DNA from: Chondrilla cf. caribensis
Lineage: Eukaryota; Porifera; Demospongiae; Chondrillida; Chondrillidae
Assembly (NCBI GenBank): GCA_964020155.1
Contig: OZ026552.1
Span: 4,656,548 to 4,720,547, forward strand
DNA length: 64,000 nt
Direction: 5' to 3'
The notes under the pieces are model-generated. The model was not told where the DNA came from and made no database searches. It was given only the letters and a program-made list of their open reading frames with translations. The position numbers were made by a program, and so were the translations under genes. Position 1 is the first letter of the stretch; every line of letters begins with the position of its first letter. This document shows, in pieces, positions 1 to 26,201 of this stretch.

Positions 1-733
1 CATCATCTTGTAAGGAGATACTACAATCACTAACTGCTAACTGCTACCAACCTCCAACAGATGGGATGTACTGGATCACAATACAAGACCAATGTATCAA
101 CAAGACACAGACTATAAAAGTAACATGCTACAATACATCACAGAATGTATATTATTATAGCTGACATCCTCTCTCTCTTGTACACTACAACAGGTTTGGT
201 GTGACATGTCCACATGTGGAGGAGGATGGACACTAGTGTGGAAACACTCCTACATGGAGGTTACTCCACTCACATCAGACATGTACTACTTCTCTGATCA
301 CTACAGACCCTGTACTGATATCAACAGTGGATGGTGCAATGTACCCCATAAATCTCACCTCAAGCCCACTGAAATGATGATAGTTGCCTACCACAACAAA
401 AGAGTTGTGTATGCCTATCGAGGGAAATTTAACCGTAACATTGACTCGGACTGGACAGGAGGGATTCTACTGGATCACCACAAGTGTGCGGACCTTTGTG
501 CCAGACATAATGGAGTTCGTCCAGCACCTAGTGTTCATACTAAAAGAGATAGCAGATTTCTTGGGATTGCCTTTGATAAAGAGTCTCCTGACAACTACTA
601 TGCCAATTGTGATACATTTTGGAGTTACTTTAACAATCCTGCGGATTGTCGCTGGCATGACTGTGACCTGCCAACTTCCATTTCTGCTATAAACAGAAAT
701 ACTCAAATGACAGTAGCCATTTATGTACGCTGA
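1..733 (+). CDS. Array copy 1 (type A), 5'-partial: end of exon 3 and all of exon 4
   Basis: The window opens inside exon 3 (1-119, from SSCKEI onward). Exon 4 is 194-733 and ends in TGA. The last exon-3 base is A instead of the usual G (ATAAAA then GTAAC), which slightly weakens the donor but keeps Lys. Intron 3 is 120-193 and ends CAACAG. Variable residues in exon 4: LCARHN after the HKC motif, SVHTKRDSRF, E after FDK, A after YY, WSY after DTF, A/H/D around the CRW motif and INRN before TQMTVAIYVR. KCADLC replaces the usual KCVDHC. Exons 1 and 2 lie outside the window, so function of the whole gene is inferred from the downstream copies. Confidence 0.85.
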
Positions 734-1955
734 TTGGTTGATGCAGGAATGGGCTGGCAAAGTAACACAATATCTGATACAACTATGTCCACATACATCA
801 ATTAATGCATGTACTTACTTGGAAATTTAACTGAGGCAGTGGAATAATTACATAATACAGAAAATCAATTTTTGGATTCACTGAATGCATGGTCATGACG
901 GTTGGGAGGATAGTCCGTACATTATTGGGTGTATATGTGTGTGGCTGGTACATGGGAATATATGCATATAACACATACAATATACACATGTACACATTGT
1001 GAATATGCACTTTGAACCTCCACAACCTGGCAAGGAGTTACTGCTCAAAATATGCCAAATTAGCAAGATTCCACTGTACTTGGTTATAGCCTTGTCTCAA
1101 CCTCTCATTGGATTATGTAAATGTGCATAACACCTTCTCTGTACATAACACCTACTCTGTACATAACACCTATTCTGTACATAACACCTACTCTATACAT
1201 AACATCTACTCTGTACATAGCACCTACTCTGTACACCACACTTACTCTGTACATAGCACCTACTCTGTACATAACGTCCACTCTGTACATAACACCTGCT
1301 CTGTACATAACACCTACTCTGTACATATATAACACGTACTCATTGTTCTATAGATATTGCTAGCATCAAATAATATCTTCCCAGAGGTACGTACATTCAC
1401 ATGCACACATAGACTATGTACATATGTACTATTAGTGAACCTCCTCAACAGTAAAGCATACATCAAACATATCAAGTGAAGATGTGGCTACTTTGAACTA
1501 GCCTCATTAGTGACCTTGCTCAGCAACATCCTTTGAAATGAACCAATTACAGTACTTTGGAGACCTCAGGTTCACGAACCTTGTAAACATGTCTACAACA
1601 TTTCATGGATTTCGGAGCTGATTGAAATACAATAGTGTTTTCTGGATTCTTTACAAATGCACAACATACTCAATGACCTGATCCTATCATTGTGCATACA
1701 TTTGACTAATGCCAACATAATACAGGCTTACAGTACAGCATATATTAAGAAGGAGTTAATAGTACACTGCTTAATTCACCAGCATACATATGGATCTACT
1801 TACAATTTGACAGAAACACTACAACAACACACTGTCAGTACGTACCATGGGTACATATGTACATCAAAGAACAGCAGATGCTCTGAATGAGATTCATTGG
1901 CAATGAATAATTTTAAAAATAGCTACAACTGCTACATAACCGGAAGTTGAACGGC
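734..1955. other. Intergenic spacer copy 1 to copy 2, with 18-bp minisatellite
   Basis: Holds a 3' flank that recurs almost unchanged after nearly every copy (to about 1130), then an 18-bp tandem minisatellite (1138-1330, unit like TACATAACACCTACTCTG), then the conserved upstream block that precedes each promoter. The minisatellite is open in several frames and gives repetitive peptides on both strands, which I do not regard as genes. No AATAAA is evident close after the stop. Confidence 0.75.
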
Positions 1956-1963
1956 TATAAATA
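1940..1963 (+). promoter_or_regulatory. Core promoter of copy 2: ETS-like site and TATA box
   Basis: CCGGAAGT (1940-1947, an ETS-type core) is followed by TATAAATA (1956-1963), 61 bp before the ATG. The same arrangement precedes most type A copies, which supports it as the real promoter. The ETS reading is by motif only. Confidence 0.7.
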
Positions 1964-2016
1964 CAGGACATATCTCCAGCTGAACACCGGCTGGTGTGTA
2001 GATTCAAGAGGTCAAC

Positions 2017-3141
2017 ATGTGGAGCTTTCTGGTAGTGATCTTGATCATTGTTAAGATTGGTTCAGTGGAGAGCACTGTCTTGTTGGAGAAGACAACAACT
2101 GACATATCTCACACTATTAACAAGGTGAGTGGGGGAGGTGGAGGAACACTGGTTGTGGGGTGATGGTGATGGTGACCACATTCATCTACTCTACAGAGAT
2201 CAGCACCAACTACACCATGTGACAAATCTAGGGAAAGGAACGCCATCTACAGTCAGCAACAAACTGATACAGTGTGGATTTGTAAGAGTGGAAAGTGGAC
2301 ACCTTTCAAGTAAGACACTATATATAGGAATATATGACACACACAACACAATGTACTGTACTCCATTCCACAGGCTAACACTATCACTGGGAGCTACTCA
2401 AGATGTTCCTGCATCATCCTGTAAGGAGATACGACAATCACTAACTGCTAACTGCTACCAACCTCCAACAGATGGGATGTACTGGATCACAATACAAGAC
2501 CAATGTACCAACCGGACACAGACTATAAAGGTAACATGCTACAATACATCACAGAATGTACATTACAACTTACATCCTCTCTCTCTCGTACACTACAACA
2601 GGTTTGGTGTGACATGTCCACATGTGGAGGAGGATGGACACTAGTGTGGAAACACTCCTACATGGAGGTTACTCCACTCACATCAGACATGTACTACTTC
2701 TCCAATCACTACAGACCCTGTACCGATATCAACAGTGGATGGTGCAATGTACCCAAGAAATCTCGCCTCAAGCCCACTGAAATGATGATAGTTGCCTACC
2801 ACAACAAAAGAGTCGTGTATGCCTATCGAGGGATATTTAACCGTAACATTGACTCGGACTGGACAGGAGGGATTCTACTGGATCACCACAAGTGTGTGGA
2901 CCATTGTGCTAGAAATAATGGAGTTCGTCCAGCACCTAGTAATCATGTTAATAGAGATAACAGATTACTTGGGATTGCCTTTGATAAACTCTCTCCTGAC
3001 AACTACTATCACAATTGTGATACGTTCTACAACAGTTTTGACAATCCTTTGGAGTGTCGCTGGTATGATTGTCGCCTGCCAACTTCCATTTCTGCTACAA
3101 GCGCAAGCACTCAAATGACAGTAGCCATTTATGTACGGTGA
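2017..3141 (+). CDS. Array copy 2 (type A): secreted fibrinogen-like protein, reference member
   Basis: Exons 2017-2124, 2197-2309, 2374-2530 and 2602-3141; all introns GT-AG (72, 64, 71 bp; phases 0, 2, 0). The spliced product is 305 aa. Residues 1-19 (MWSFLVVILIIVKIGSVES) are a signal peptide. Exon 2 has PCDKS and VWICKSGKW. Exon 3 has SSCKEI, NCYQP and DGMYWITI. Exon 4 opens VWCDMSTCGGGWTLVW, the order CKEI / DGxYWI / CDMxTxGGGWTLV seen in the N-terminal part of fibrinogen-related and intelectin domains. The second half lacks the usual FReD signature and is Cys-rich instead (KCVDHC, NCDTF, ECRW, DC). Variable residues: ARNN, SNHVNRDNRL, L, H, YNS, L/Y/R, TSAS. Likely an extracellular recognition protein; ligand unknown. 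The ATG is chosen because it is conserved in context and position in all type A copies. Confidence 0.85.
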
Positions 3142-3507
3142 TTGGTTGATGCAGGAATGGGCTGGCAAAGTAACACAATATCTGATACAACTATGTTTAC
3201 GTACATCAATTAATGCATGTACTTACTTGGAAATTTAAGTGAGACAGTGGAATAATTGAAATAATGGAAAAATTACATAATACAGAAAATCAATTTTTGG
3301 ATTCACTGAATGCATGGTCATGACGGTTGGGAAGATGGTCCGTACATTATTGGGTGTACATGTGCATGGCTAGTACATGGGAATACATGTATATAACACA
3401 ATGTCATATATTATACCCATGTATACATTGTGGATATGCACTTTGAACCTTCACAACCACCATACTGCTGGATGTATTGCATGTACATATTACATATTAT
3501 ACACATA

Positions 3508-3510
<3 letters not shown>
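3142..3510. other. 3' flank of copy 2, start of duplicated block
   Basis: Common 3' flank, then the variant that continues ACCACCATACTGCTG (shared with the flanks of copies 6, 7 and 11) rather than the CCTGGCAAGG variant. It leads into the AT-rich point where the retrotransposon is inserted. No gene seen. Confidence 0.7.
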
Positions 3511-3541
<31 letters not shown>

Positions 3542-6500
3542 GTGCTGCTGTAGGGAGACTCCCAAAATAGCACATACATATAACAGTCAATAGAAAAACA
3601 ATTTATAACAGTTCAACTCTTCTATTCCACATTCTCATAACTATTCTAGAAATCGTCTTCTCATGCAATCTTTTCATCACATCATTTAAATTGTCGTCCT
3701 CTTTCTCCATTAGCTGTTCCAGATCACATCGTTCATCTTGTAGGGCCTCACAGGATGTGAGGAAATGCCTCTCATCTCCCATCTCTTTCTTGCATAGCAG
3801 ACAGATCCTATCTTCTCTTGCTACTCCTCTCCATCTCCCCGTTTCCACTTCCAGCTTTGCACATCCACATCTCAATTCCCCTATCAGCTTCCTCTGATCT
3901 TTGCTTTGCACTCTAACTGCTCCTCCCATCTTCCACTCTGCAAAAGCTATATCTCCTACTAAAACTTCCCAATATCCTAACTTCTGTGATCTGCTGCAGC
4001 CCTCTCTCCACTCTTCCTGGAGCTTCCTCCATACACATGCCTCCAACATCTCGTTCACCTGATCAAGTGACAAATCTGCAAACATTTCTCCTGGCGAACC
4101 ATGCCCATTCCACCCTATACACTCCAAGAACCCCTCATCCCCTTCCATCCATCCTACCCCCTCATTTGCCCATGCCATCACTCTATTCAGTAACCTCATC
4201 TTCTCATTTCTACTAGCTTTTATGTAGTACTTAATCGCCCTAATTTTCGCTTCCCATCTCACAGGCATCCACCCCGCTTCCAATTCCAAGCCCAAAAGGG
4301 GGAATTTGGAGTGAACCCCCAAACGACTTCTAATTGCTGCCCGTTGAACTTTCTCCAATTTATATTCATTTCTACATAGCAACCCCCATATTTCAGCAGC
4401 ATACAACATGGAACTTCTCACATACGACATATATAGTTTCGTAAACGTTTCCCACCCTACATTCCCCAAGCCTCTGATTAATCTATTCACCCCATATAAA
4501 GCTTTCCTACTATTTTCCATTACTGACTCCATCATCCTATCTCCCTTCAATGATTCATCAATTATAACCCCCAGATATTTGTACTCAGCAACCATCTGAA
4601 TAACTTCCCCTCCTATCCTAAAAACTTCCTTACATTTCTTTATTCGTCTCTTGTCACGAAAGTGAATCACACCACTCTTACCCACATTGATCTTCATCTT
4701 CCACTTACAACACCACTTATTCACTACTTCTAATGCTCTATTCAGCTGAACCTCACTTTCCGCAAAAACCACTATGTCATCTGCAAACATCAAACCAGGA
4801 ATTCGTATATCTTCAACTTCAATTCCTACATGTTCTCTTCTCAACTCTTCCATTAAATCATTCACATAAGCACTAAATAGAATTGGCGATAGAACACATC
4901 CCTGCCTGAGACCCACATCAACCGGGAAAGAATCACTACACTTGTCACCAACTTTCACCTTACATTTCAAATCTGAGTAAATCGCTTTGATTGAATCAAA
5001 TATCTTACCTCCAATACCCAAACTTTTAAGCCTATTCCATAAAGCAAACCTATCCACTGAATCATAAGCTTTTTTCAAATCAATAAAGCCACCAAACATA
5101 CTCCCCTTCCTCTTAATAATCTTCCTCCCTATCATCGTTAACATCATAATATTATCTATACAACTCCTCCTCTTACGAAAACCATTTTGCTCCTCACACA
5201 GAAGCTGGTTACCCTCCAAGTATGACTCCAGCCTCATTCTCAGTACTGTACAAAAGACCTTATATACCGCTGAAAGGAGGCTAATCCCGCGATACCCATT
5301 TGGATCAGGTATAGCTTTCTCTGCCTTTTTTGGTATAGGGACTATTATACCCTCTCGCCATACAGCTGGGATCTCTCCCCTTTCAAAACAAGCATGGCAC
5401 AACTCAAAAATAAACTCACCAACTGCTCGATTTTTTAACCATTTCCCCATAACTCCATCCTCGCCTGGGGTAGCCTCTTCTCTTACCCTCCTAAGGGCTT
5501 CCCACACTTCTTCTACTGCCACTGGTCTATTCAAGATCTCATCATCCGTCTCACCCACACCCATTTCTTGCCCCTCCGACTTTAATTCTTCTTCAATAGT
5601 ACTGTAAGGCCTACTCAGCAGATCTTCAAATACATTCTTCCATACTTCTCTCACCTCCTCTTCCCCACATACTATTTCACCATCTTTACCCATAACCTTA
5701 CCCCAATCCGTAACTTCTATCCTCTGCCCTTTCATAAGCTTCTTAACATGCCTCCACCAGCAGTGTTGGTTAGTTTTTAAGCACCTATCTAGACTCTCGC
5801 ACATCTTCTTTTCAAAATTCCATTGAGCTCTCCTTGCTTCATCCCTATACCTATTTCGCACCTTTATATAACCCCGCCTCTCCATCTTACCCTTTAGCCA
5901 TGCCTTCTCTGCTTTGTGGAATTCCTTCCTCATCCTCCATAGTTCACGACCAAACCAAGCCTTCCTTCCGCAAACTCTCCTACTACCTCGCTTACGTGAT
6001 TTCCTGGACCTCTTCTCCAAACCCTTAAAAACAACCCCACAAAAATCCTTATAGATGGTATCCATGCTACAGCCCCTATCATGTAATCTATCAATTAACT
6101 GCCTACATTCCCCTTCCATGAAATCAATGAACAATTCCTCATCACCCTGTGGAAAACTCCACCATACCCTCTCTGAATCAACCAGCTCGGATTCCCCGCC
6201 TTCCTTGCCCTCACCACCCAGCACATCTGGTAATGCAACCGACCACATCAACAGAGAATGGTCGGACTCTCTTGACAGTATATCCGCCCCAATAGCAAGA
6301 CTAAAAGTGCTCATGGAAACAACCTCAAAATCCCTTACAATGTCTCTATCATCGACAGAGGAAATGCAGAAATCTACGACTGACTTTCCCTTCTTAGAAA
6401 TACAAGTGAAATCATTCCTCCCCTCAATACCTCTCCCGTTATGCATACATAAATCATGATCTCTCATCAAGTTCCACAAAAACTCCCCACTTTGATTTTT

Positions 6501-7179
6501 AAAAGTATCAATAATCTCCCTTTTTCTCAAAATTGCTGATCCATACTCCTCTACTGCAAATTCCTGCATCTTGCCACATCTTGCATTAAAATCCCCACAT
6601 AAGATCACCCTTCCCCAATCTCTAAACTCCATAATCTGACTACCAATCTTTTCAAAAATCTCCTCAACATTTTCTCGCCTCCCTGACAATTCAGGTGGAA
6701 CATAACAGATTCCTAGAAGGAGACCTTCCCATTCATTCCACATTCTACTCTTGATTTCCACCCACATGACATCCTCGACCGTGTCATCTAAAATCACAAC
6801 ATCTAGAAACTTCAACAGATCCTCCTTAACAAATATACCAACTCCGCCAGATCCTCTAATTGCCCTTTTATTCACATTTTTCCTATTTCTTCCCCACCAT
6901 CTATAACCTTTCAAAACTGCCACTTCATCCTCTTTCAACCATGATTCTGTAACTATCATAACATCCGGTTGGTAGAAATCAGCTACCCTCTGTCTACGAT
7001 CCTCCTCTGAAATCACTCTGCTCTTATAATCAGCCTCACACCTAAGATTAGACCACCCCCCAACATTCCAACAAATGAAATTAAGCTTATCTTTACCCCT
7101 AATGAAGTTCCTACCCTTATCAACCCCTACCCCTTTCCCCGCTAATTGTTTCCCCTTCAACTCCCCGCATTTCCCCGCA
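3511..7179 (-). mobile_element. Non-LTR (LINE-type) retrotransposon insertion
   Basis: The element lies on the - strand. Its 3' end carries an (AAT)n tail, seen as (ATT)n at 3511-3540. The flanks (ATTATACACATATAT to the left, ATATATGCAGTTTC to the right) join into one continuous sequence at the paralogous empty sites near 24375 and 37320, so the borders are fixed to within a few bases. A short AT-rich target duplication is likely but cannot be separated from the AT repeat. No separate ORF1 is present, and only about 20 bp precede the ORF, so the 5' end may be truncated. Confidence 0.85.
3603..7160 (-). CDS. Retrotransposon polyprotein: APE-type endonuclease plus reverse transcriptase
   Basis: One uninterrupted 1185-codon frame. 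The N-terminal apurinic-type endonuclease has WNVGGW (about residue 31), TESWL, GVGIFV, GDFNAR (about 188) and SDHSLL (about 298). The reverse transcriptase follows with IIVPIPKK, GYRGISLLS, NGFRKRRSC, IDLKKAYDSVDR, LRQGCVLSPILF and the catalytic FADD (about 791-794). Near the C terminus CLLCKKEMGDERHFLTSC (about 1116) is a CCHC-like zinc motif typical of several LINE clades. It would nick target DNA and copy its own RNA at the nick. No stop or frameshift is present, so the copy may be young and possibly active. The clade cannot be assigned without a tree. Confidence 0.92.
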   Translation of the reverse strand: MKGKQLAGKGVGVDKGRNFIRGKDKLNFICWNVGGWSNLRCEADYKSRVISEEDRRQRVADFYQPDVMIVTESWLKEDEVAVLKGYRWWGRNRKNVNKRAIRGSGGVGIFVKEDLLKFLDVVILDDTVEDVMWVEIKSRMWNEWEGLLLGICYVPPELSGRRENVEEIFEKIGSQIMEFRDWGRVILCGDFNARCGKMQEFAVEEYGSAILRKREIIDTFKNQSGEFLWNLMRDHDLCMHNGRGIEGRNDFTCISKKGKSVVDFCISSVDDRDIVRDFEVVSMSTFSLAIGADILSRESDHSLLMWSVALPDVLGGEGKEGGESELVDSERVWWSFPQGDEELFIDFMEGECRQLIDRLHDRGCSMDTIYKDFCGVVFKGLEKRSRKSRKRGSRRVCGRKAWFGRELWRMRKEFHKAEKAWLKGKMERRGYIKVRNRYRDEARRAQWNFEKKMCESLDRCLKTNQHCWWRHVKKLMKGQRIEVTDWGKVMGKDGEIVCGEEEVREVWKNVFEDLLSRPYSTIEEELKSEGQEMGVGETDDEILNRPVAVEEVWEALRRVREEATPGEDGVMGKWLKNRAVGEFIFELCHACFERGEIPAVWREGIIVPIPKKAEKAIPDPNGYRGISLLSAVYKVFCTVLRMRLESYLEGNQLLCEEQNGFRKRRSCIDNIMMLTMIGRKIIKRKGSMFGGFIDLKKAYDSVDRFALWNRLKSLGIGGKIFDSIKAIYSDLKCKVKVGDKCSDSFPVDVGLRQGCVLSPILFSAYVNDLMEELRREHVGIEVEDIRIPGLMFADDIVVFAESEVQLNRALEVVNKWCCKWKMKINVGKSGVIHFRDKRRIKKCKEVFRIGGEVIQMVAEYKYLGVIIDESLKGDRMMESVMENSRKALYGVNRLIRGLGNVGWETFTKLYMSYVRSSMLYAAEIWGLLCRNEYKLEKVQRAAIRSRLGVHSKFPLLGLELEAGWMPVRWEAKIRAIKYYIKASRNEKMRLLNRVMAWANEGVGWMEGDEGFLECIGWNGHGSPGEMFADLSLDQVNEMLEACVWRKLQEEWREGCSRSQKLGYWEVLVGDIAFAEWKMGGAVRVQSKDQRKLIGELRCGCAKLEVETGRWRGVAREDRICLLCKKEMGDERHFLTSCEALQDERCDLEQLMEKEDDNLNDVMKRLHEKTISRIVMRMWNRRVELL

Positions 7180-8075
7180 TATATATGCAGTTTCTACTGT
7201 ATTATCATCAATGCTGAGCATGGTGTCCCCAGTGCGGATCATAACTTAGATTTTCAACTGCAGTCAATCTGTCACAATTTGTTGTTGAAAGAGGTGGTAT
7301 ATAGATTAAGGAGTTTGGCAAATTAACTTGACACTCATTACTGTTCGTGTAATATTATATTTGCATTGAGAAATTGTTGGGGATAAAGATTATGGTGGTG
7401 AATTTAAAACAATTCACTAGCTGTAGTACATACACATTCAGGACAATATTATGCAGTTTAGAGAGTGCTCGTGGAATATTCACAGTATGGTATATATGAC
7501 CAAGTGAATGGTATATATATGATGGACTTGCTGTTCCTGTGACAGGAAGTTACAGCAAACTGGGAATTAACTTCCTGTTCATCATGTGACAGGAAGTTAT
7601 ATCAAATGAACAATGAATTTCCTTCTTCAGAATATTGGAAATCAACTATATATATAATGCATACTTTGTATTACGGAACCCTGTTCTCTTATTACATATT
7701 GTAATGCAACTAACCATTAGAAGAGGAAATAACATTCAATCCATGCAAGATGGAAGAGGTGTGTGCTGCATGGGTGCTGCATAATTGAACAAATTGAAAA
7801 AGGAAATGAATCCACCTGGTCATGAGGGTTTGAGGATTTCACCTGCTGTGTCTGGGTTTCTCCTGGCCACCAGATCTCCTGAGAGGATTCGTTCGTGGAT
7901 GTCTGTTTCTGGGAGATGGTTGACAAATGACAATCACAAGTGATAACACAGCACGTACAGGTAATTGGACATCTTCATACCATATGTGTACACATATGTC
8001 CATGCAGTACAGTACATATGTATGGATATGGAGTCTAACTTGCCTAGCAAGTACCGTGAAGGACACAACAAATCT
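7180..8075. other. Duplicated spacer block, left part
   Basis: Recurs at about 19880-20626, 24375-25299 and 37320-38343. Around 7550-7590 it contains inverted ACAGGAAG / CTTCCTGT repeats that can fold. On the - strand this stretch would be the 3' UTR and downstream DNA of the gene whose last exon ends at 8076. No other coding region is convincing. Confidence 0.55.
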
Positions 8076-8830
8076 CTACTTCTTATCAGAGGTATTAGCT
8101 ATCAACACTGGTGGACAGCAGTGCATGTGATATATGCTGGGGCTGACTGGAGCTTTGTTAGCCATGAATATGTATGTACTGTATGTACTAACAAGGGTAC
8201 CTGAATATTATGTATGTACTGTATGTACTAACAAGGGTACCTGAAGATATATGTACTGTATGTACTAACAAGGGGACCTGAATACGTATGAACTGTACGT
8301 ATGTACTAACAAGGGTACCTGAATACGTATGTACTGTATGTACTAACAAGGGTACCTGAATATGTATGTACTGTATGTACCAACAAGGGTACCTGAGTAT
8401 GTATGTCTGTATGTACTAACAAGGGTACCTGAATATGTATGTACTGTATGTACCAACAAGGGTACCTGAATATGTACGTATGTACTGTATGTACCAACAA
8501 GGGTATCTGAATACGTATGTACTGTATGTACTAACAAGGGTACCTGAATATGTATGTACTGTATGTACCAACAAGGGTACCTGAGTATGTATGTCTGTAT
8601 GTACTAACAAGGGTACCTGGATATGTATGTACTGTATGTACCAACAAGGGTATCTGATACAGCTAGGCAAGTGGCAATGTATATACCATTAGAAAGAACA
8701 TACATGAAAGTGAAGCAATACACCAGATATACTGTATGTACATACCTTCTGATGTTGTACTTGTTCCCAATACTTGCCAATCCACTGAGTATCTGTGATG
8801 TTGTGTTGAGTTGAGTGATCACAGTAGGTA

Positions 8831-8870
<40 letters not shown>

Positions 8871-9696
8871 ACGTGCATGTGTGTATGTCTCAGTTTGAAT
8901 GTCTGTATTTGATAGGCATGGATACAATCATACATGTGATCCCTTCCCACTTCAGAACACTACCCTCCTCTCCATAAAGACTGCGAGAACACCTGTACCA
9001 CATTGTCATGTCTGTACAACACTACACTTACTCATCAAAGTTCAATCCTTTCGTCCATGACAGCAATTCATCCACATCCTCCTCCTCCACCATCTCCACC
9101 CCTCCTCGCTCTACAACGTCCATCATTTGCTCTGTTGCTGTCTGGAATTCCTTCCTGTCCAGACCTTCCAACTCGTGCGCATCCATCATTCCTTGCTTGT
9201 ATCTGGAAGCATTTCATGCATGAGTATGCAGGTACGTAGACAATTACACACACGTACGTATGTACATATTATAGATACGTAAGTATTTACGTACATATGT
9301 ACATACAGACAGTATACATACCACCACAGAATAACAGATAAATATAGATAGGGTACGTAGATGAAATCACAGCCTGCCATTTGTACTTACTCATGTATAT
9401 ACCGTGATATGAAGTAGTGCTGGTTGTTGGAGTATTGTTAGACATGTCTATCTTGAACAATAACAACAATAACAATAGTCAACAATAGTCCAACAACCAA
9501 CACTACTAACGTAAAATTTTAAGACACTTACAGTTTCTTCAGCCACTGTATTTTCCTCTCCTTCTTTCTCCTCTCTACGTCTTCCTTTCTCTTCAACTGA
9601 AGGAAGGAAACATGAAAGAAGTGCATTTACTGCAGAGCAGGGAGCAGATAGGAGTGGAGTGCTGGCTGTACACACACACACACACGCGCGCGCGCG

Positions 9697-9739
<43 letters not shown>

Positions 9740-9828
9740 ACACACGTACATACCTTGGAATGATGAAATTCCTTCTTTTGTAGTGAAGTGTCATTTTGAA
9801 TTGAGTCATGGTCAATTTTAGCAAATAG
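8076..9828 (-). CDS. 3' part of an unrelated - strand gene, copy 1 (five exons)
   Basis: Exons in order of transcription: 9828-9754, 9596-9532, 9202-9032, 8792-8746 and 8107-8076 (stop TAG). Splice sites are GT-AG and all phases agree (0, 2, 2, 1). The joined C-terminal 129 residues run from LFAKIDHDSIQ through a Lys/Arg/Glu-rich, coiled-coil-like stretch (LKRKEDVERRKKERKIQW), LEGLDRKEFQTATEQMM and an acidic VEEEDVDELLSW, to the end VLIANTSDKK. I do not recognise the family; the mix of a basic coiled coil with an acidic tail suggests an intracellular protein. Upstream exons were not found, so this may be a partial copy. Introns contain (CA)n and the 37-bp minisatellite. The exon set is repeated at 38344-40013, which supports the model. 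Confidence 0.65.
8165..8660. repeat. Minisatellite, ~37-bp unit
   Basis: About a dozen units of the form GTACTAACAAGGGTACCTGA followed by TATGTATGTACTGTAT. Lies in the last intron of the - strand gene. Shorter arrays of the same unit occupy the equivalent place at 20717, 25397 and 38437. Confidence 0.9.
8834..8868. repeat. (TG)n microsatellite
   Basis: Uninterrupted GT dinucleotides in an intron of the - strand gene. The paralogous site at 38879-38960 is about twice as long. Confidence 0.95.
9669..9746. repeat. (CA)n microsatellite with a CG-rich core
   Basis: CA dinucleotides interrupted by CGCGCGCGCG, in the first recognised intron of the - strand gene. The paralogous tract at 39810-39920 is a longer, purer CA run. 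Confidence 0.95.
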
Positions 9829-10380
9829 CTGAACATTGGAATACATCATATATGTATCATTATAATACGTACATATGTAGATACGTACATCATATATGAT
9901 ATATACGTACATACATACATATGTGTATTGTTGTGAGATGATGTACTGTAAAACAGTAGCACACCATTTTATGACATTGTATACACATATTTATATACAT
10001 ATTGTATGCATATACACACATACATATGTACGTATGTGTGTCCATAATAATGCTGGTACTAATAACAATAAGCAGTATATTGTACACACATACGTATGTA
10101 TATGTACACACATGCATGCACACATGTGCACGATAAGATGCATATGTATGTACGTACATGTGTACCAATGTGGTTCCAAAACAACATTCATCATCACACT
10201 ATATATGTACATCCATTGGTAGGAGAGGAGTGAGACAGTTAGCTCACAGTCCAGGGAATTCAAGGCTATTCATTGGAGAGGGTCCATGCCCTTTTCCACC
10301 CAAACAAACAGACCTCATGAGAACGTTGCACATAAGGGAAGGAATTCACTACTTGTGTGGCAGTAGCAGGAGGACCACAA
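9829..10380. other. Spacer rich in TACGTA/TATGTA motifs
   Basis: Upstream of the recognised exons of the - strand gene. Dense short palindromes of TAC, GTA and CAT. Contains a block (about 10030-10100, GTGTCCATAATAATGCTG) repeated near 20940, 26265 and 40240, and a block at 10200-10380 repeated at 40395-40580. More 5' exons of the - strand gene could lie here, but I could not define any. Confidence 0.4.
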
Positions 10381-10703
10381 TACTAATAGTATTCATAGAT
10401 ACAGTACCTACGCAAATCACTCCATAACATTGAGGAAGGGGGAGATTTGGTGTGGGAGATTAGGAAGAAGATAAATCTGGTACTTACTTCATTCAGACAT
10501 TATCTATGATCATATCTCATCTTACATAAGTGTACATATGTACTCGGTGCAAAGAGTGAAGCTCAGAGTGGTGTATAAAGGTGAACTGTAAGGTGGTTGA
10601 GAGAAGAGAGCTTTGGGATAGTTTGTAAGAGGAAAAATTGGGAGAAAATAATCTTAGGATGATTTCTGCTACAAACTAGTGACAGTAGCCATTCATGAAC
10701 GGT
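10381..10703 (+). pseudogene. Ghost of a type B array gene (promoter flank, intron 3, last bases of exon 4)
   Basis: 10381-10430 matches the DNA just upstream of the type B promoter at 40640-40680. 10460-10660 matches intron 3 of the type B gene at 61015-61215 (for example GAGAAGAGAGCTTTGGGATAG). 10662-10703 is the remnant of exon 4 from ATTTCTGCTACAAAC to the TGA, with the variable codons and TQ deleted. Exons 1-3 and most of exon 4 are gone, so no protein is possible. Confidence 0.75.
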
Positions 10704-10854
10704 GATTGGTTGCTGCTCTTCTGTTGCAGTTGTCTGTTTGCATGGGTACTGGCATATGTACATTGAAGAACAGCAGATGCTCTGAATGAGATTCATTGGC
10801 AATGAATAATTTTAAAAATAGTTACAACTGCTACATAACCGGAAGGTGAACGGC

Positions 10855-10862
10855 TATAAATA
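10855..10862 (+). promoter_or_regulatory. TATA box of copy 3
   Basis: TATAAATA 61 bp before the ATG, preceded by a CCGGAAG ETS-like core. Confidence 0.7.
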
Positions 10863-10915
10863 CAGGACATATCTTCAGCTGAACACCAACTGGTGTGTAG
10901 ATTCAAGAGGTCAAC

Positions 10916-12045
10916 ATGTCGAGCTTTCTGGTAGTGATCTTGATCATTGTTGAGATTGGGTCAGTGGAGAGCACTGTCTTGTCAGAAGAGACAACAACGG
11001 ACATATCTCACACTATCAACAAGGTGAGTGGGGGAGGTGGAGGAACACTGGTTGTGGGGTGATGGTGATGGTGATCACATTCATCTACTCTACAGAGATC
11101 AGCACCAACTACACCATGTGACAAATCTAGGGAAAGAAACGCCATCTACAGTCAGCAACAAACTGATACAGTGTGGATTTGTAAGAGTGGAAAGTGGACA
11201 CCTTTCAAGTAAGACGCCATATATATGTAAGAATATACATATGACACACACAACACAATGTACGGTACTCCATTCTACAGGCTAACACTATCACTGGGAG
11301 CTACTCAAGATGTTCCCGCATCATCCTGTAAGGAGATACGACAATCACTAACTGCTAACTGTCACCAACCTCCAACAGATGGGATGTACTGGATCACAAT
11401 ACAAGACCAATGTACCAACCAGACACAGACTATAAAGGTAACATGCTACAATACATCACAGAATGTACATTACAACTTACATCCTCTCTCTCTTGTACAC
11501 TACAAAAGGTTTGGTGTGACATGTCCACATGTGGAGGAGGATGGACACTAGTGTGGAAACACTCCTACATGGAGGTTACTCCACTCACATCAGACATGTA
11601 TTACTTCTCCGATCACTACAGACCCTGTACCGATATCAACAGTGGATGGTGCAATGTACCCCATAAATCTCACCTCAAGCCCACTGAAATGATGATAGTT
11701 GCCTACCACAACAAAAGAGTCGTGTATGCCTATCGAGGGAAATTCAACCGTAACATTGACTCGGACTGGACAGGAGGGATTCTACTGGATCACCACAAGT
11801 GTGTGGATCATTGCACCAGTAAATATAATGGCGTTCGTCCAGCACCTAGTGGTCACGAGGATAACAGATTACTTGGTATTGCCTTTGATAAATACTCTCC
11901 TGACAACTACTACTGGAATTGTGATACATTCCGCAACAGTTTTGACAATCCTGCAGAGTGTCGCTGGGATAACTGTCGCCTGCCAACTTCCATTTCTGCT
12001 ACAGCCTGGCGTACTCAAATGACAGTAGCCATTTATGTACGGTGA
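10916..12045 (+). CDS. Array copy 3 (type A)
   Basis: Exons 10916-11023, 11096-11208, 11281-11437 and 11509-12045; 304 aa. Starts MSSFLVV instead of MWSFLVV. Intron 2 is somewhat longer than usual. Variable residues: TSKYN, SGHEDNRL (two residues shorter than the common SxxxNRDNRL form), Y after FDK, W after YY, RNS, A/D/R with DNC in place of DDC-type spacing, and TAWR before TQ. No lesion seen. This is the first gene downstream of the type B ghost. Confidence 0.85.
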
Positions 12046-13132
12046 TTGGTTGCTGCAGGAATGGGCTGGCAAAGGAACACAATATTTGATACAACTTTGT
12101 CCACGTACATCAATTAATGCATGTACTTACTTGGAAATTTAAGTGAGGCAGTGGAATAATTACATAATACAGAAAATTAATTTTGGATTCACTGAATGCA
12201 TGGTCATGACGGTTGGGAGGATAGTCTGTACATTATTGGGTGTACATGTGCATGGCTAGTACATGGGAATACATGCATATAACACATATAATATACCCAT
12301 GTACACATTGTGGATGTGCACTTTGAACCTTCACAACCTGGCAAGGAGTTACTGCTCAAAATATGTCAAATTAGCAAGACTCCACTGTACTTGGTTATAG
12401 CATTGTCTCAACCTCTTATTGGATTAGGTAAATGTACATAATACCTACTCTGTACATAACACCTACTCTGTACATAACACCTATTCTGTACATAACACCT
12501 ACTCTGTACATAATGTCTACTCTCTATAACACTTGCTGATCTATCTAAATTCTATCCTACAAGAGGTACATTCACATGTACATACAGACTATGTACATAT
12601 GTACTATTAGTGAACCTCCTCAACAGTAAAGCATACATCAAACATATCAAGTGAAGATGTGGCTACTTTGAACTAGCCTCATTAGTGACCTTGCTCAGCA
12701 ACATCCTTTGAAATGAACCAATAATTACAGTGCTTTGGAGACCTCAGGTTTATGAACCTTGTAAACATGTCTACAACATTTCATGGATTTCAGAGCTGAT
12801 TGGAACACAATAGTGTCTTCTGGATTCTTTACAAATGCACAACATACTCAATGACCTGATCCTATCATTGTGCATACATTTGACTAATACCAACATAATA
12901 CAGGCTTACAGTACAGCATACATTAGGAAGGAGTTAATAGTACACAGCTTAATTCACCAGCATACATATGGATCTACTTACAATATGACAGAAACACTAC
13001 ATCAACACACTGTCAGTACGTACCATGGGTACATATGTACATTGAAAAACAGCAGATGCTCTAAATGAGATTCATTGGCAATGAATAATTTAAAAATAGC
13101 TACAACTGCTACATAACCGGAAGTTGAACGAC
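12046..13132. other. Spacer copy 3 to copy 4
   Basis: Common 3' flank, a short 18-bp minisatellite (12428-12530), then the conserved pre-promoter block (about 12600-13130). No gene seen. Confidence 0.7.
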
Positions 13133-13140
13133 TATAAATA
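13133..13140 (+). promoter_or_regulatory. TATA box of copy 4
   Basis: TATAAATA 61 bp before the ATG, with CCGGAAGT about 10 bp upstream of it. Confidence 0.7.
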
Positions 13141-13193
13141 CAGGACACCGCTCCAGCTGAACACCAGCTGGTGTGTAGATTCAAGAGGTCAAC

Positions 13194-14326
13194 ATGTGGA
13201 GCTTTCTTGTAGTGATCTTGATCATTATTGAGATTGGTTCAGTGGAGAGCACTGTCTTGTTGGAGGAGACAACAACTGACATATCTCACACTATCAACAA
13301 GGTGAGTGGGGGAGGTGGAGGAACACTGGTTGTGGGGTGATGGTGATGGTGATCACATTCATCTACTCTACAGAGATCAGCACCAACTACACCATGTGAC
13401 AAATCTAGGGAAAGAAATGCCATCTACAGTCAGCAACAAACTGATACAGTGTGGATTTGTAAGAGTGGAAAGTGGACACCTTTCAAGTAAGACATTACAT
13501 ATAGGAATATATGACACACACAACACAATGTACTGTACTCCATTCTACAGGCTAACACTCTCACTGGGAGCTACTCAAGATGTTCCTGCATCATCCTGTA
13601 AGGAGATACAACAATCACTATCTGCTAACTGCTACCAACCTCCAACAGATGGGATGTACTGGATCACAATACAAGACCAATGTACCAACCAGACACAGAC
13701 TATAAAGGTAACATGCTACAATACATCACAGAATGTACATTACAACTTACATCCTCTCTCTCTCTCGCACACTACAACAGGTTTGGTGTGACATGTCCAC
13801 ATGTGGAGGAGGATGGACACTAGTGTGGAAACACTCCTACATGGAGGTTACTCCACTCACATCAGACATGTACTACTTCTCCAATCACTACAGACCCTGT
13901 ACCGATATCAACAGCGGATGGTGCAATGTACCCCATAAATCTCACCTCAAGCCCACTGAAATGATGATAGTTGCCTACCACAACAAAAGAGTCGTGTATG
14001 CCTATCGAGGGAAATTTAACCGTAACATTGACTCGGACTGGACAGGAGGGATTCTACTGGATCACCACAAGTGTGTGGACCATTGTGCCAGAAGTGGAAA
14101 TAATGGAGTTCGCCCAGCACCTAGTGATAATGGTAATAGAGATAACAGACTTCTTGGGATTGCCTTTGATAAACGCTCTCCTGATAACTACTATGACAAT
14201 TGTGATACATTCTGGAACAATTTTGACAATCCCAGAGAGTGTCGCTGGGGTGACTGTAGCCTGCCAACTTCTATTTCTGCTAAAAGCACAGGTACTCAAA
14301 TGACAGTAGCCATTTATGTACGGTGA
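13194..14326 (+). CDS. Array copy 4 (type A)
   Basis: Exons 13194-13301, 13374-13486, 13551-13707 and 13781-14326; 307 aa. Two residues longer than the reference in the loop after HC (ARSGNN). Variable residues: SDNGNRDNRL, R after FDK, D after YY, WNN, R/G/S and KSTG. Intron 3 is 73 bp because the CT run is one unit longer than in copy 2. No lesion seen. Confidence 0.87.
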
Positions 14327-15458
14327 TTGGTTGCTGCAGGAATGGGCTGGCAAAGTAACACAATATCTGATACAACTATGTTTACGTACATCAATTAATG
14401 CATGTACTTACTTGGAAATTTAAGTGAGGCAGTGGAATAATTACATAATACACAAAATCAATTTTTGGATTCACTGAATGCATGGTCATGACGGTTGGGA
14501 GGATAGTCTGTACATTATTGGGTGTACATGTGCATGGCTAGTACATGGGAATACATGCATATAACACATATAATATACCCATGTACACATTGTGGATATG
14601 CACTTTGAACCTTCACAACCTGGCAAGGAGTTACTGCTCAAAATATGTCAAATTAGCAAGACTCCACTGTACTTGGTTATAGCCTTGTCTCAACCTCTCA
14701 TTGGATTATGTAAATGTACATAACACCTACTCTGTACATAACACTCTGTACATAACACCTATTCTGTACATAACACCTACTCTGTACATAACACTCTGTA
14801 CATAACACCTATTCTGTACATAACACCTACTCTTTACATAAAACCTAAGACTGGTTGTTCTTTAGATATTGCTAGTATCAAATTCCATTCTGCCAGAGGT
14901 ACATTCACATGCACTCACAGACTGTGTACATACTATTAGTGAACCTCCTCAACAGTAAAGCATACATCAAACATATCAAATGAAGATGTGGCTACTTTGA
15001 ACTAGCCTCATTAGTGACCTTGTTCAGCAACATCCTTTGAAATGAACCATTTGAAGGGCTTTGGAGACCTCACGTTCATGAACCTTGTAAACATGTCTAC
15101 AACATTTCATGGATTTCAGAGATGATTGAAATACAATAGTGTCTTCTGGATTCTTTACAAATGCACAACATACTCAATGACCTGATCCTATCATTGTGCA
15201 TACATTTGACTAATGCCAACATAATACAGGCTTACAGTACAGCATACATTAGGAGGAGTTAATAGTACACAGCTTAATTCACCAGCATATATATGGAGCT
15301 ACTTTCAATTTGACAGAAACACTACAACAACACACTGTCAGTACGTACCATGGGTACATATGTACATTGAAGAACAGCAGATGCTCTGAATGAGATTCAT
15401 TGTCAATGAATAATTTTAAAAATAGTTACAACTGCTACACAACCAAAAGTTGAACGGC
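14327..15458. other. Spacer copy 4 to copy 5
   Basis: Common 3' flank, 18-bp minisatellite with some units shortened (14718-14845), and pre-promoter block. No gene seen. Confidence 0.7.
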
Positions 15459-15466
15459 TATAAATA
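15459..15466 (+). promoter_or_regulatory. TATA box of copy 5
   Basis: TATAAATA 61 bp before the ATG. The ETS-like core is altered here (ACCAAAAGT). Confidence 0.65.
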
Positions 15467-15519
15467 CAGAACAATGCTTTAGTTGAACACGAACTGGTGT
15501 GTAGATTCAAGAGGTCAAC

Positions 15520-16649
15520 ATGTGGAGTTTTCTGGTAGTGATCTTGATCATTGTTGAGATTGGGTCAGTGGAGAGCACTGTCTCGTTGGAGGAGACAACA
15601 ACTGACATATCTCACACTATCAACAAGGTGAGTGGGGAGGTGGAGGAACAATGGTTGTGGGGTGATGGTGATGGTGACCACATTCATCTACTCTACAGAG
15701 ATCAGCACCAACTACACCATGTGACAAATCGAGGGAAGGAAACGCCATCTACAGTCAGCAACAAACTGATACAGTGTGGATTTGTAAGAGTGGAAAGTGG
15801 ACACCTTTCAAGCAAGACAATATATATAGGAATATACGACACACACAACACAATGTACTGTACTCCATTCCACAGGCTAACACTCTCACTGGGAGCTACT
15901 CAAGATGTTCCCGCATCATCCTGTAAGGAGATACGACAATCACTAACTGCTAACTGCTACCAACCTCCAACAGATGGGATGTACTGGATCACAATACAAG
16001 ACCAATGTACCAACCAGACACAGACTATAAAGGTAACATGCTACAATACATCACGGAATGTACATTACAACTTACATCCTCTCTCTCTCGTACACTACAA
16101 CAGGTTTGGTGTGACATGTCCACATGTGGAGGAGGATGGACACTAGTGTGGAAACACTCCTACATGGAGGTTACTCCACTCACATCAGACATGTACTACT
16201 TCTCCAATCACTACAGACCCTGTACCGATATCAGCAGTGGATGGTGCAATGTACCCCAGAAATCTCGCCTCAAGCCCACTGAAATGATGATAGTTGCCTA
16301 CCACAACAAAAAAGTCGTGTATGCCTATCGAGGGAAATTTAACCGTAACATTGACTCGGACTGGACAGGAGGGATTCTACTGGATCACCACAAGTGTGTG
16401 GATCATTGTACAAGAAGTGAAAGTAATGGAATACGTCCAGCACCCAGTGTTACTGATAATAGAGATAACAGACTTCTTGGGATTGCCTTTGATAAAGTCT
16501 CTCCTGACCAATACTATGGTAATTGTGATACATTCCGCAATAGTTTTGACACACCTGTGGAGTGTCGTTGGGCTGACTGTATCCTGCCAACTTACATTTC
16601 TGCTACAAACAGAAATACTCAAATGACAGTAGCCATTTATGTACGGTGA
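15520..16649 (+). CDS. Array copy 5 (type A), with a GC splice donor
   Basis: Exons 15520-15627, 15699-15811, 15876-16032 and 16104-16649; 307 aa. The donor of intron 2 is GC (15812-15813, CAA then GCAAGA) instead of GT; GC-AG introns are a known minor functional class. Intron 1 is 71 bp and has no in-frame stop, so exon 1 reads on through it into the wrong frame of exon 2 if unspliced. Variable residues: TRSESN with NGIRP, SVTDNRDNRL, V, DQYYG, RNS, V/A/I with FDTP, and TNRN preceded by PTYISA. Confidence 0.82.
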
Positions 16650-17762
16650 TTGGTTGATGCAGGAATGGGATGGCAAAGTAACACAATATCTGATACAACT
16701 ATGTTTATGTACATCAATTAATGCATGTACTTACTTGGAAATTTAAGTGAGGCAGTGGAATAATTACATAATACAGAAAATCAATTTTTGGATTCACTGA
16801 ATGCATGGTCATGACGGTTGGGAGGATAGTCCGTACATTATTGGGTGTACATGTGCATGGCTAGTACATGGGAATACATGCATATAACACATATAATATA
16901 CCCATGTACACATTGTGGATATACACTTTGAACCTTCACAACCTGGTAAGGAGTTACTGCTCAAAATATGTCAAATTAGCAAGACTCCACTGTACTTGGT
17001 TATAGCCTTGTCTCAACCTCTCATTGAATTATGTAAATGTACATAACACCTACTCTGTACATAACACCTACTCTGTACATAACATCTACGTACTATGTGC
17101 ATAACATCTAATCTGTACATAACACCTACTCTGTACATAAAACGTACGTATTGGTTGTTCTTAAGATATTGCTAGTATCAAATTTCATCCTTCCAGGGGA
17201 CATTCACATGCACTCACAGATGATGTACATATGTACTATTAGTGAACCTCCTCAACAGTAAAGCATACATCAAACATATCAAGTGAAGATGTGGCTACTT
17301 TGAACCAGCCTCATTAGTGACCTTGCTCAGCAACATCCTTTGAAATGAACCATTTGGAGAGCTTTAGGGATATCAGGTTCATAATCCTTGGAAACATGTT
17401 TACAACATTTCATGGACTTCAGAGATGATTGAAATACAATAGTGTCTTCTGGATTCTTTACAAATGCACAACATACTCAATGACCTGATCCTATCATTGT
17501 GCATACATTTGACTAATGCCAACATAATACAGGCTTACAGTACAGCATACATTAGGAAGGAGTTAACAGTACACAGCTCAATTCACCAGCATACATATGG
17601 AACTACTTACAGTTTGACAGAAACACTACAACAACACACTGTCAGTACGTACCGTGGGTACATATGTATATTGAAGAACAGCAGATACTCTAAATGAGAT
17701 TTATTGGCAATGAATAATTTTAAAAATAGTTACAACTGCTACATAACCAGAAGTTGAATGGC
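16650..17762. other. Spacer copy 5 to copy 6
   Basis: Common 3' flank, degenerate 18-bp minisatellite (17036-17140), pre-promoter block. No gene seen. Confidence 0.7.
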
Positions 17763-17770
17763 TATAAATA
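17763..17770 (+). promoter_or_regulatory. TATA box of copy 6
   Basis: TATAAATA 61 bp before the ATG; the upstream core reads ACCAGAAGT. Confidence 0.65.
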
Positions 17771-17823
17771 CAGGACATATCTCCAGCTGAACACCAGTTG
17801 GTGTGTAGATTCAAGAGGTCAAC

Positions 17824-19540
17824 ATGTGGAGCTTTCTGGTAGTGATCTTGATCATTGGTGAGATTGGGTCAGTGGAAAATGCTGTCTTGTTGGAGGAGAC
17901 AACAACTGACATATCTCACACTATCAACAAGGTGAGTGGGGGAGGTGGAGGAACACTGGTTGTGGGGTGATGGTGATGGTGACCACATTCATCTACTCTA
18001 CAGAGATCAGCACCAACTACACCATGTGACAAATCTAGGGAAGGAAACGCCATCTACAGTCAGCAACAAACTGATACAGTGTGGATTTGTAAGAGTGGAA
18101 AGTGGACACCTTTCAAGTAAGACACCATATATAGGAATTTGTAACCCAGTGTGAGGTGAGATCAAAGACGCCGCTTTGTGTCTATATCCTGTAGACACAC
18201 AGCTGAGGTCTATCAGGCCCCTGTTCACAGGCTTTATTTGATACTTCCTAAACAGAGGCATTGATTTATTAGTACTTAATTAATTTTACGGCAACACAAT
18301 TAAGCGTTAAAAACTATAACTCCAAGAAGTACAGTTGCCAGAAAATGAATCCCAGTTTTCTTTCATAAAAATTGTCAAAAAGTCATCTTTGTCGTTTTTA
18401 ATCACCCATTTGTTATTTTTTGCGTTCTTGGGGACAGACGGCTATTTCAAAGCAGTAAAGTTCTCTTCAAAGGGGCATGTTAGAAAATCAGCCCTTTTTC
18501 TACATCGATTCTTCTATATACAAACTGAAGAACAAGCACCTTTTCCTGTTACTATGATTTCACTTAATTGCCGTTTGGCAGTAAGTAGCTGCGGAGGCCC
18601 ATGGTCATTTTCTTCTGAAATTTTGTCGGGTCAATCAGATTCGTTTAAGTTACACAAGTGAGCCATTGGTCTACTCCGATCATGTCGCATAATACCAACA
18701 TGTGAACAAATCTTGCACCTATTCTTACAGTTGCTGGGGCACAACTATTATATGACACACACAACACAATGTACTGTACTCCATTCTACAGCTTAACACC
18801 CAAACTGGGAAATACCAGAGATTTCCCTGCATCATCCTGTAAGGAGATAATACGTGCTAGCTGCTACCAACCTGATGGGATGTACTGGATCACAATACAA
18901 GACCAATGTACCAACCAGACACAGACTATAAAGGTAACATGCTACAATATATCACAGAATGTACATTACAACTTACATCCTCTCTCTCTCTCGTACACTA
19001 CAAAAGGTTTGGTGTGACATGTCCACATGTGGAGGAGGATGGACACTAGTGTGGAAACACTCCTACTTGGAGGTTACTCCACTCACATCAGACATGTACT
19101 ACTTCTCCAATCACTATAGACCCTGTACCAATATCAACAGTGGATGGTGCAATGTACCCCAGAAATCTCGCCTCAAGCCCACTGAAATGATGATGGTTGC
19201 CTACCACAACAAAAGAGTCGTGTATGCCTATCGTGGGAAATATAATCGTAACATTGACTCGGACTGGACAGGAGGGATTCTACTGGATCACCACAAGTGT
19301 GTGGACCATTGTACCAGACAAAATGGAGTTCGTCCAGCACCTACTGCTGCACTGGATAACAGATTTCTTGGGATTGCCTTTGATAAAGTGTCTCCTGACA
19401 ACTATTATGACAATTGTGATACATTCTGGAACAATTTTGATAATCCTGGAGAGTGTCGCTGGCGTGACTGTCGCCTGCCAACTTCCATTTCTGCTAAAAG
19501 CTCAGATACTCAAATGACAGTAGCCATTTATGTACGGTGA
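17824..19540 (+). CDS. Array copy 6 (type A), with an insertion in intron 2
   Basis: Exons 17824-17931, 18004-18116, 18792-18933 and 19007-19540; 298 aa. Intron 2 is 675 bp instead of about 64 because of an insertion at about 18139-18744. Exon 3 is 15 bp shorter, and unlike the other type A copies: LTPKLGNTRDF, and CKEIIRASCYQPDGMYW without the usual SLTAN and PPT. The acceptor is CTACAG followed by CTTAAC, giving Asn where others have Lys. Variable residues: TRQN, TAALDNRF, V, D, WNN, G/R/R, KSSD. The TAALDNRFLGIAFDKVSPDNYY segment also occurs in the type B gene at 41910-42443. Confidence 0.8.
18139..18744. mobile_element. Insertion in intron 2 of copy 6, probable small TIR element
   Basis: About 606 bp absent from all other type A introns. 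Ends are imperfect inverted repeats, TTGTAACCCAG on the left and CTGGGGCACAA on the right. A clear target duplication is not seen; some extra bases (CTATTA) follow the right end. Holds a 108-codon open frame (18335-18661) with no recognisable motif. Class not assigned. Confidence 0.55.
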
Positions 19541-20626
19541 TTGGTTGCTGAAGGAATGGGCTGGCAAAGTAACACAATATCTGATACAACTATGTTTACG
19601 TACATCAATTAATGCATGTACTTACTTGGAAATTTAAGTGAGGCAGTGGAATAATTACATAATACAGAAAATCAATTTTTGGATTCACTGAATGCATGGT
19701 CATGACAGTTGGGAGGATAGTCCGTACATTATTGGGTGTACATGTGCATGGCTGGTATATGGGAATACATGCATATAACACATATAATATACCCATGTAC
19801 ACATTGTGGATATGCACTTTGAACCTTCACAACCACCATACTACTGAATGTATTGAATGTACATATTACATATTATACATATATATGTATATGCAGTTCC
19901 TACTATATTGTTATAAAAGGTTCAGTGGGTAAAAGATTATGGTGGTGGATTCACAACAATTCACTAGCTGTAGTACATACACATTCAGGACAATATTATG
20001 CAGTTGAGAGTGTGCTTGTGGAATATGCACGGTATGGTATGTATGACCAAGTGAATGGTATATATGATGGACTTGCTGTTCCTGCCACAGGAAGTTACAG
20101 CAAACTGGGAATTAACTTCCTGTTCTTCATGTGACAGGAAGTGATATCAAATGAACAATGAATTTCCTTCTTCAGAATATTGGAAATCAACTATATATAC
20201 AATGCATACTTTGTATTACGGAACCCTGTTCTCTTATTACATATTGTAATGCAACTAACCATTAGAAGAGGAAATAACATTCAATCCATGCAAGATGGAA
20301 GAGGTGTGTGTTGCATGGGTACTGATTAACATAATTGAACAAATTGAAAAAAGGAAATGAATCCACCTGGTCATGAGGGTTTGAGGATTTCACCTGATGT
20401 GTCTGGGTTTCTCCTGGCCACCAGATCTCCTGAGAGGATTCGTTCGTGGATGTCTGTTTCTGGGAGATGGTTGACAAATGACAATCACAAGTGATAACAC
20501 AGCACATACAGGTAATTGGACGTCTTCATTCCATATGTGTACACATATGTCCATGCAGTACAGTACATATGTATGGATATGGAGTCTAACCTGCCTAGCA
20601 AGTACTGTGAAGGACACAACAAATCT
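19541..20626. other. 3' flank of copy 6 and duplicated spacer block
   Basis: Same block as 7180-8075 but with a deletion near the start. Ends at the relic last exon of the - strand gene. Confidence 0.6.
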
Positions 20627-20658
20627 CTACTTCTTATCAGAGGTATTAGCTATCAACA
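20627..20658 (-). pseudogene. Orphan last exon of the - strand gene
   Basis: Matches 8076-8107 exactly in position, acceptor (CCACCAG) and stop: codes VLIANTSDKK then TAG. The four upstream exons found at 8.7-9.8 kb are absent here, so the copy cannot make the protein. Confidence 0.65.
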
Positions 20659-21847: not shown

Positions 21848-21852
21848 CCTCA

Positions 21853-22700: not shown

Positions 22701-22859
22701 ACTGTAGACAACAAATACAATTTTATGGAAATTGAATGAAGTAGCATAGCAAGCTTGAGGTGCAGTTGTCATGGTAACATCACACTCATACTATAGTATA
22801 ATATTATAATGTTTTGCATTCAGTAGATCCAGTTACAACAACACCAGAAGTTAAACAGC
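22701..22859. other. Upstream region of copy 7
   Basis: Differs from the pre-promoter block of MWSF-type copies but is shared with copy 8 (27490-27649). This marks copies 7 and 8 as a duplicated pair. Confidence 0.65.
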
Positions 22860-22867
22860 TATAAATA
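22860..22867 (+). promoter_or_regulatory. TATA box of copy 7
   Basis: TATAAATA 57 bp before the ATG, in a promoter variant (TTAAACAGC before it) shared only with copy 8. Confidence 0.7.
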
Positions 22868-25590: not shown

Positions 25591-25592
25591 TA

Positions 25593-26199: not shown

Positions 26200-26201
26200 T
26201 A

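Follow-up and report, generated by a model that had tools for sequence, protein, structure and literature searches.

Intelectins bind microbial glycans, with carbohydrate contacts at residues 243, 244, 260, 262, 263, 274, 288 and 297, and in mouse single binding residues differ between paralogues and strains, although the excerpted text describes no array of the sponge kind reported below (PMC8324875). Intelectin-like genes are also expanded in placozoans, where they are thought to be defensive: Trichoplax sp. H2 has up to 31 of them, many with signal peptides and lying in genomic clusters, whereas the excerpted text describes no hypervariable codon pattern and the likeness to the sponge genes is one of description rather than sequence (PMC6321704). 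The fibrinogen-related proteins (FREPs) of the snail Biomphalaria are soluble proteins with a fibrinogen-related domain, whose diversity the excerpt attributes to gene conversion and point mutation (PMC12074976), and sea urchin 185/333 (SpTransformer), as excerpted, is a large and very diverse immune gene family (PMC1988830). Here we describe a tandem gene array in the sponge Chondrilla cf. caribensis, contained in a stretch of 64,000 nucleotides (hereafter the window; assembly GCA_964020155.1, contig OZ026552.1, here C7, positions 4656548–4720547), whose fourth exon combines a conserved frame with hypervariable codons. Among the open-licence papers listed by literature searches, none reports a codon-hypervariable lectin family in sponges.

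The window contains 18 copies of exon 4, all on the forward strand and 17 of them open, and the array extends past it with further copies on both sides. Exons 1–3 were located by tblastn over the window for 17 of the 18 copies, the first gene being cut by the window edge. A search of the genome (137 Mb, 37 contigs) gave 108 matches, the best 47 of which, all full copies of one subfamily (18 from the window, 29 from C7 and C9), form the main alignment; 37 of these 47 lie within 4.595–4.760 Mb of C7. A second alignment comprises 20 copies on C23, C13 and C16 that are 55–61% identical to the reference copy (subfamily 2). The remaining 41 matches, including partial or broken copies and those on C14 and C4 (L027, L028), were left out, as were a copy cut by a sequence boundary (L011/L012) and several partial matches.

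Variability is concentrated in single codons of the second half of exon 4. An earlier note on this DNA had listed these codons, and its counts for the 18 copies were reproduced exactly at the two leading positions: ten residues after FDK (V5 L3 Y2 H2, and one each of E, R, S, N, A and T) and eight between DC and LP (R6 H4 S3, and one each of D, I, K, N and G), rising to 13 residues at each over 47 copies. The other sites it named are likewise variable in the 18 copies, with 10 residues after YY, 6 after NP, 7 after CRW, 6, 5 and 3 at the first, second and third codons after DTF, 5–7 at each of the five codons after PAPS, and a variable loop with length changes after HC; before TQMT, the nearest three codons have 6–8 residues and the fourth, also named, only 3. 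As protein, all 47 second halves are distinct. Across the 14 of 18 gene units that could be profiled (those at 194, 41910, 50704 and 61357 were excluded for missing or different flanks), nucleotide diversity per 60 bases is 0.14–0.18 at 2922–3101, against 0.005–0.083 in the other exon-4 windows, and 0.025–0.047 over 3162–3461. Values of 0.07–0.20 also occur upstream at 1962–2441, and about 0.4 is reached past 3462, where flanks diverge or align poorly.

One assertion of the note failed, namely that adjacent codons are nearly invariant even at synonymous sites. Synonymous diversity (piS) at 11 codons flanking isolated hot codons is 0.193, compared with 0.084 in the first half of the exon (18 copies), and 0.321 compared with 0.113 in 47 copies; in the 18 copies, non-synonymous diversity (piN) at these 11 codons is 0.056 and only 1 of the 11 is invariant as DNA. 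Exon 4 is one conserved frame in which about 17 second-half codons vary, whereas the amino acids beside them, though not the DNA, hardly change.

The same positions are variable in three gene groups. In subfamily 2, 10 of the 14 hot columns are also variable (Fisher p 1.8e-7), and the Spearman coefficient over all 172 columns is 0.50. The matches listed in the homology searches (120 of 341 and 120 of 671; 171 homologues in all) included a protein of the sponge Dysidea avara, P0038, with 58% identity; among 35 homologues that share at least 60% identity with this Dysidea protein and no more than 70% with the window copy, median entropy is 2.77 at 16 hot sites and 0.72 at 66 others (Spearman 0.74, second half). 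The pattern is no by-product of one recent array.

Exon 4 from the window had no match up to E 10 to any Pfam family or, taken alone, to PDB sequences. Its homologues fell short of the 22-bit cutoff of Fibrinogen_C (PF00147; P0076 21.3, P0070 18.8 and P0129 18.6 bits, P0038 none), and P0076 scored 21.1 bits against COLFI, below the 26.2-bit cutoff. The intelectin N-terminal signature SCKEI...CDM...GGGWTLV is recognisable (hhalign probability 96, E 4.4e-9, 45 columns), and the part of P0038 matching exon 3 aligns by profile to intelectin SCKEIK; hhalign to ITLN1 and ficolin-2 gave no confident alignment of the second half. In structure comparison the predicted domain of a homologue groups with intelectins and fibrinogen-related domains, sharing their overall fold, with 12–14% identity to human ITLN1, XEEL and lamprey LSVL in structural alignments, the confident sequence alignment covering the 45 columns only. 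Coil is predicted at 13 of the 16 mapped hot sites of the homologue, against a baseline of 59 of 82 second-half residues. Coil placement and modelled fold fit a putative ligand surface, so that the ligand-contact surface proposed in the earlier note stands as a fit rather than a proof. Dozens of near-identical genes differ mainly at about 17 single codons, most of them in predicted loops, as one would expect if the germline encoded a repertoire of binding specificities.

The likeness that had been drawn to VLRs, FREPs and cone-snail toxins is retained in part: FREPs share a fibrinogen-like domain, while VLRs and cone-snail toxins are analogies only. VLRs consist of somatically assembled leucine-rich repeats, whereas Pfam gave no leucine-rich repeat match in exon 4 or the four homologues above, and the fold predicted for a homologue is fibrinogen/intelectin-like. 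FREPs carry immunoglobulin superfamily domains according to the excerpt (PMC12074976), whereas Pfam found no immunoglobulin family in P0038, P0076, P0070 or P0129. Somatic diversification is also claimed for FREPs in the excerpted literature, whereas the diversity described here is among genomic copies. The sea urchin 185/333 protein is unrelated to the sponge family. Its diversity arises mainly by sequence blocks.

The copies have recombined: a self-written test of the pairwise homoplasy index (PHI) type rejected a clonal history (p 0.002). Tandem neighbours showed no greater similarity than all pairs of copies. Exon 4 is, moreover, common to two gene types. Three genes (exon 4 at 41910, 50704 and 61357) differ from the main type by 31% in exon 2 and 36% in exon 3, but in exon 4 the difference is only 4.6% for the first half, where main-type genes differ among themselves by 3.0%, and 15.4% for the second, where the corresponding figure is 14.9%. 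Exon 4 has therefore passed between gene types, and this sharing by types 31–36% apart in exons 2–3 indicates active gene conversion. The landmark DHHKC occurs in 26 of the 37 best listed proteins, whose second half equals a local copy in 7 of the 26 and does not in 19; near-matches to local copies are P0006 (87/88) and P0017 (78/86), both from one source that may be another haplotype or a relative.

Ratios of piN to piS obtained by counting may be biased downwards, because for codons with two or three base differences the counted pathways include additional synonymous steps. We therefore built a FUBAR-like model of our own, in which alpha and beta are free at each site. It was run on 47 copies with five segment trees, since the trees of different segments have only 0–2 of about 44 splits in common (short segments also give noisy trees), and judged against 36 null simulations in which beta never exceeded alpha. 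Twice the log-likelihood gain (2dlnL) was 34.2, with 11 sites at P>=0.9 (13, 55, 70, 107, 132, 140, 146, 158, 161, 171 and 172) and 4 at P>=0.98. No null simulation exceeded 11 sites overall, 6 in the second half, 1 at 0.98 or a 2dlnL of 16.0, so that the second-half site count (8), the number of sites at P>=0.98 and the likelihood gain all lie beyond the null. Positive selection is supported at many of the named codons. The earlier expectation of ratios of non-synonymous to synonymous rates (dN/dS) above 1 was borne out at these eight second-half sites, and not at the codons after PAPS and after NP, where P stays below 0.9. A naive whole-tree dN/dS analysis (18 sites at P>=0.9, 2dlnL 38.1) was not relied on, because as many as 20 sites and a 2dlnL of 30.3 arose in null simulations that followed segment-wise histories.

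The explanation that we favour, at a probability of about 0.6, is that these genes encode predicted secreted X-type-lectin-like proteins in which gene conversion homogenises the frame and diversifying selection acts on loop codons, giving a germline repertoire of binding sites. Conversion would spread the frame and reshuffle loop variants, and selection at the loop codons would keep every copy distinct. The outcome would be a repertoire of putative binding sites whose likeliest targets are glycans on the surfaces of microbes or symbionts; it would be passed on as a tandem array, with turnover between haplotypes or close relatives. By analogy, microbial recognition is the likeliest putative function, because intelectins bind microbial glycans, placozoans have expanded intelectin-like genes and, as excerpted, fibrinogen-domain genes of D. 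avara respond to microbial patterns (PMC6208332). This D. avara response also speaks against the idea that the loops mark self, as part of the sponge graft-rejection or fusion system, rather than bind microbes. Self recognition in sponges is specific, repeatable and taken in the excerpted text to be a polymorphic genetic system (PMC5450542), in keeping with second halves that are all distinct and with the different repertoires on other contigs; set against this are dozens of paralogues per genome instead of one polymorphic locus, and the main text of an Amphimedon graft transcriptome study, in which, as far as that text extends, 'fibrinogen' and 'lectin' occur 0 times each. We regard such a role in allorecognition as unlikely.

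Several results weigh against a selected, reshuffled lectin repertoire. The calcium and sugar residues of intelectins do not align with confidence; the sugar residues are reached only by a forced low-confidence alignment, which pairs W269 of P0038 with W288 and C254 with C259 (numbering by hand). Segment distances correlate between copies (r 0.18–0.63, p<0.05 in 9 of 10 pairs), and reshuffling is therefore only partial. With 11 sites at P>=0.9, the overall count does no more than match the null maximum (11), and three of these sites fall in the first half; in subfamily 2, ten of the same sites (104, 117, 119, 132, 140, 146, 153, 158, 171 and 172) are among 22 at P>=0.8, but 2dlnL is only 6.4 and uncalibrated. 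Nei–Gojobori counting is equivocal: for hot sites chosen post hoc it gives a piN/piS ratio of 1.22 in 18 copies and 1.06 in 47, and piN at hot sites over local piS is 1.06 (0.93–1.26). Two further points would equally be expected if the second half were older, escaped gene conversion and consisted of tolerant surface loops under relaxed constraint with no positive selection: piN/piS is 0.74–0.84 in 47 copies when sites are chosen independently, from subfamily 2, and piS is raised in the second half relative to the first in both subfamilies (0.20 vs 0.08 in 18 copies, 0.27 vs 0.11 in 47, 0.54 vs 0.13 in subfamily 2). Relaxation alone should not, however, exceed the local synonymous rate, and seven isolated hot codons, picked as variable, have piN 0.52–0.53 against an adjacent piS of 0.19–0.32. 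The segment-tree result beyond the null, the recurrence of single-codon sharpness in other gene groups and a skewed residue use at hot codons (seen vs expected from base composition: Trp 16 vs 2.6, His 81 vs 46, Pro 1 vs 17; stops 0 vs 16.7 among 765 codons) also count against it, and we consider it improbable, somewhat more so than a self-marking role.

Targeted mutagenesis of fixed codons, in the style of a diversity-generating retroelement (DGR) or a deaminase, is very improbable: DGRs target AAY codons, and columns 140, 158 and 161 do vary at positions 1 and 2 with a pyrimidine at position 3 in 43, 47 and 43 of 47 copies, while a reverse transcriptase lies nearby, but the first-position A hardly varies at columns 104, 147, 148 and 169 (43, 44, 46 and 47 of 47), purines and pyrimidines both occur at the third positions of 132, 146, 170 and 171, 46 of 47 copies carry a purine at column 153, neighbouring codons carry silent changes too, stops are absent from the 765 hot codons, and the reverse transcriptase, judged by eye, resembles that of an ordinary long interspersed nuclear element (LINE). 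A DGR-like process was rejected on its invariant A positions and on variation at bases other than A, a template repeat not having been searched for, and a deaminase-like one was merely considered, from the same base-pattern table. The reverse transcriptase belongs to an open reading frame of 1185 amino acids on the minus strand at 3603–7160, between gene copies 2 and 3, with an FADD motif and an endonuclease-like N part (by eye), which we take to be a LINE-type element.

Table 1 Features of the array in window coordinates. Columns are exon-4 alignment columns; P is P(beta>alpha) in the segment-tree test.
Feature	Position	Strand	Description
18-copy exon-4 array	194..61890	+	Starts 194, 2602, 11509, 13781, 16104, 19007, 23502, 28364, 30547, 33559, 36439, 41910, 44196, 50704, 52829, 55027, 57266, 61357
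Exon 1, reference gene	2017..2124	+	Start codon and hydrophobic leader (MWSFLVVILIIVKIGSVES...); exon 1 upstream of 17/18 exon-4 copies
Exon 2	2197..2310	+	RSAPTTPCDKS...WICKSGKWTPFK; small Cys/Trp module; window tblastn
Exon 3	2372..2530	+	SCKEI...DGMYWI...; fibrinogen/intelectin-like domain begins here
Exon 4, reference copy	2602..3141	+	VWCDM..GGGWTLVW...YVR, stop; conserved frame with hypervariable codons
Hot codons, loop after HC	2911..2916	+	Columns 104 and 107, separated by a stretch of differing length in other copies; 107 P 0.958
Hot codons PAPS+1 to +5	2941..2955	+	Columns 116–120; none at 0.9
Hot codon after FDK	2989..2991	+	Column 132; P 0.999
Hot codon after YY, before NC	3010..3012	+	Column 140; 10 residues in 18 copies, 11 in 47; P 0.998
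Hot codons after DTF	3028..3033	+	Columns 146 (P 0.945), 147 (below 0.9)
Hot codon after NP	3049..3051	+	Column 153; below 0.9
Hot codon after CRW	3064..3066	+	Column 158; P 0.956
Hot codon between DC and LP	3073..3075	+	Column 161; piS 0.041 in 18 copies; P 1.0
Hot codons before TQMT	3100..3108	+	Columns 170 (below 0.9), 171 (P 0.948), 172 (P 0.984)
Type II gene	40776..42443	+	Exons 1–3 of a different gene type, with an exon 4 like that of the main type
Other type II genes	49637-51243 and 59419-61890		Same exon arrangement as 40776..42443

The leader encoded by exon 1 is a putative signal peptide, judged from its sequence, and a stretch resembling exon 2 also occurs in P0038. The copy at 55027 (window 55027–55563) is interrupted in the first half of its exon 4 by an in-frame TGA, at the codon following VVYAY. 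A second copy, L012 9091–9633, has TGA at this codon too, but the second halves of the two differ, and either conversion or recurrent change could account for the shared stop. The full copy closest to the reference (95%) lies beyond the main array and in opposite orientation (L019 8980–9522, C7 ~4.759 Mb). An isolated fragment of the start of exon 1 (MWSFLVVILIIV) at 47681–47716, with no further exon match before 49637, may be what is left of a lost copy. An imperfect tandem repeat (TACATAACACCTACTCTG, about 18 bases) was noted by eye at 1120–1330, downstream of the first copy.

A broader interpretation, which we hold tentatively and at somewhat less than even odds, is that sponges possess an antibody-like germline repertoire, in which selection diversifies the binding loops of a lectin domain one codon at a time and the loops are reshuffled as one exon undergoes conversion between gene types. 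Such arrays are easily missed by annotation, because exon 4 of the window has no Pfam match, and if the interpretation is true, existing domain models would have overlooked a system by which early animals recognise ligands. It bears on how sponges distinguish microbes, symbionts and other sponges. The candidate contact residues are pinpointed here to single codons, at positions conserved across gene groups and within a predicted lectin fold, so that binding assays with natural variants could address the question directly.
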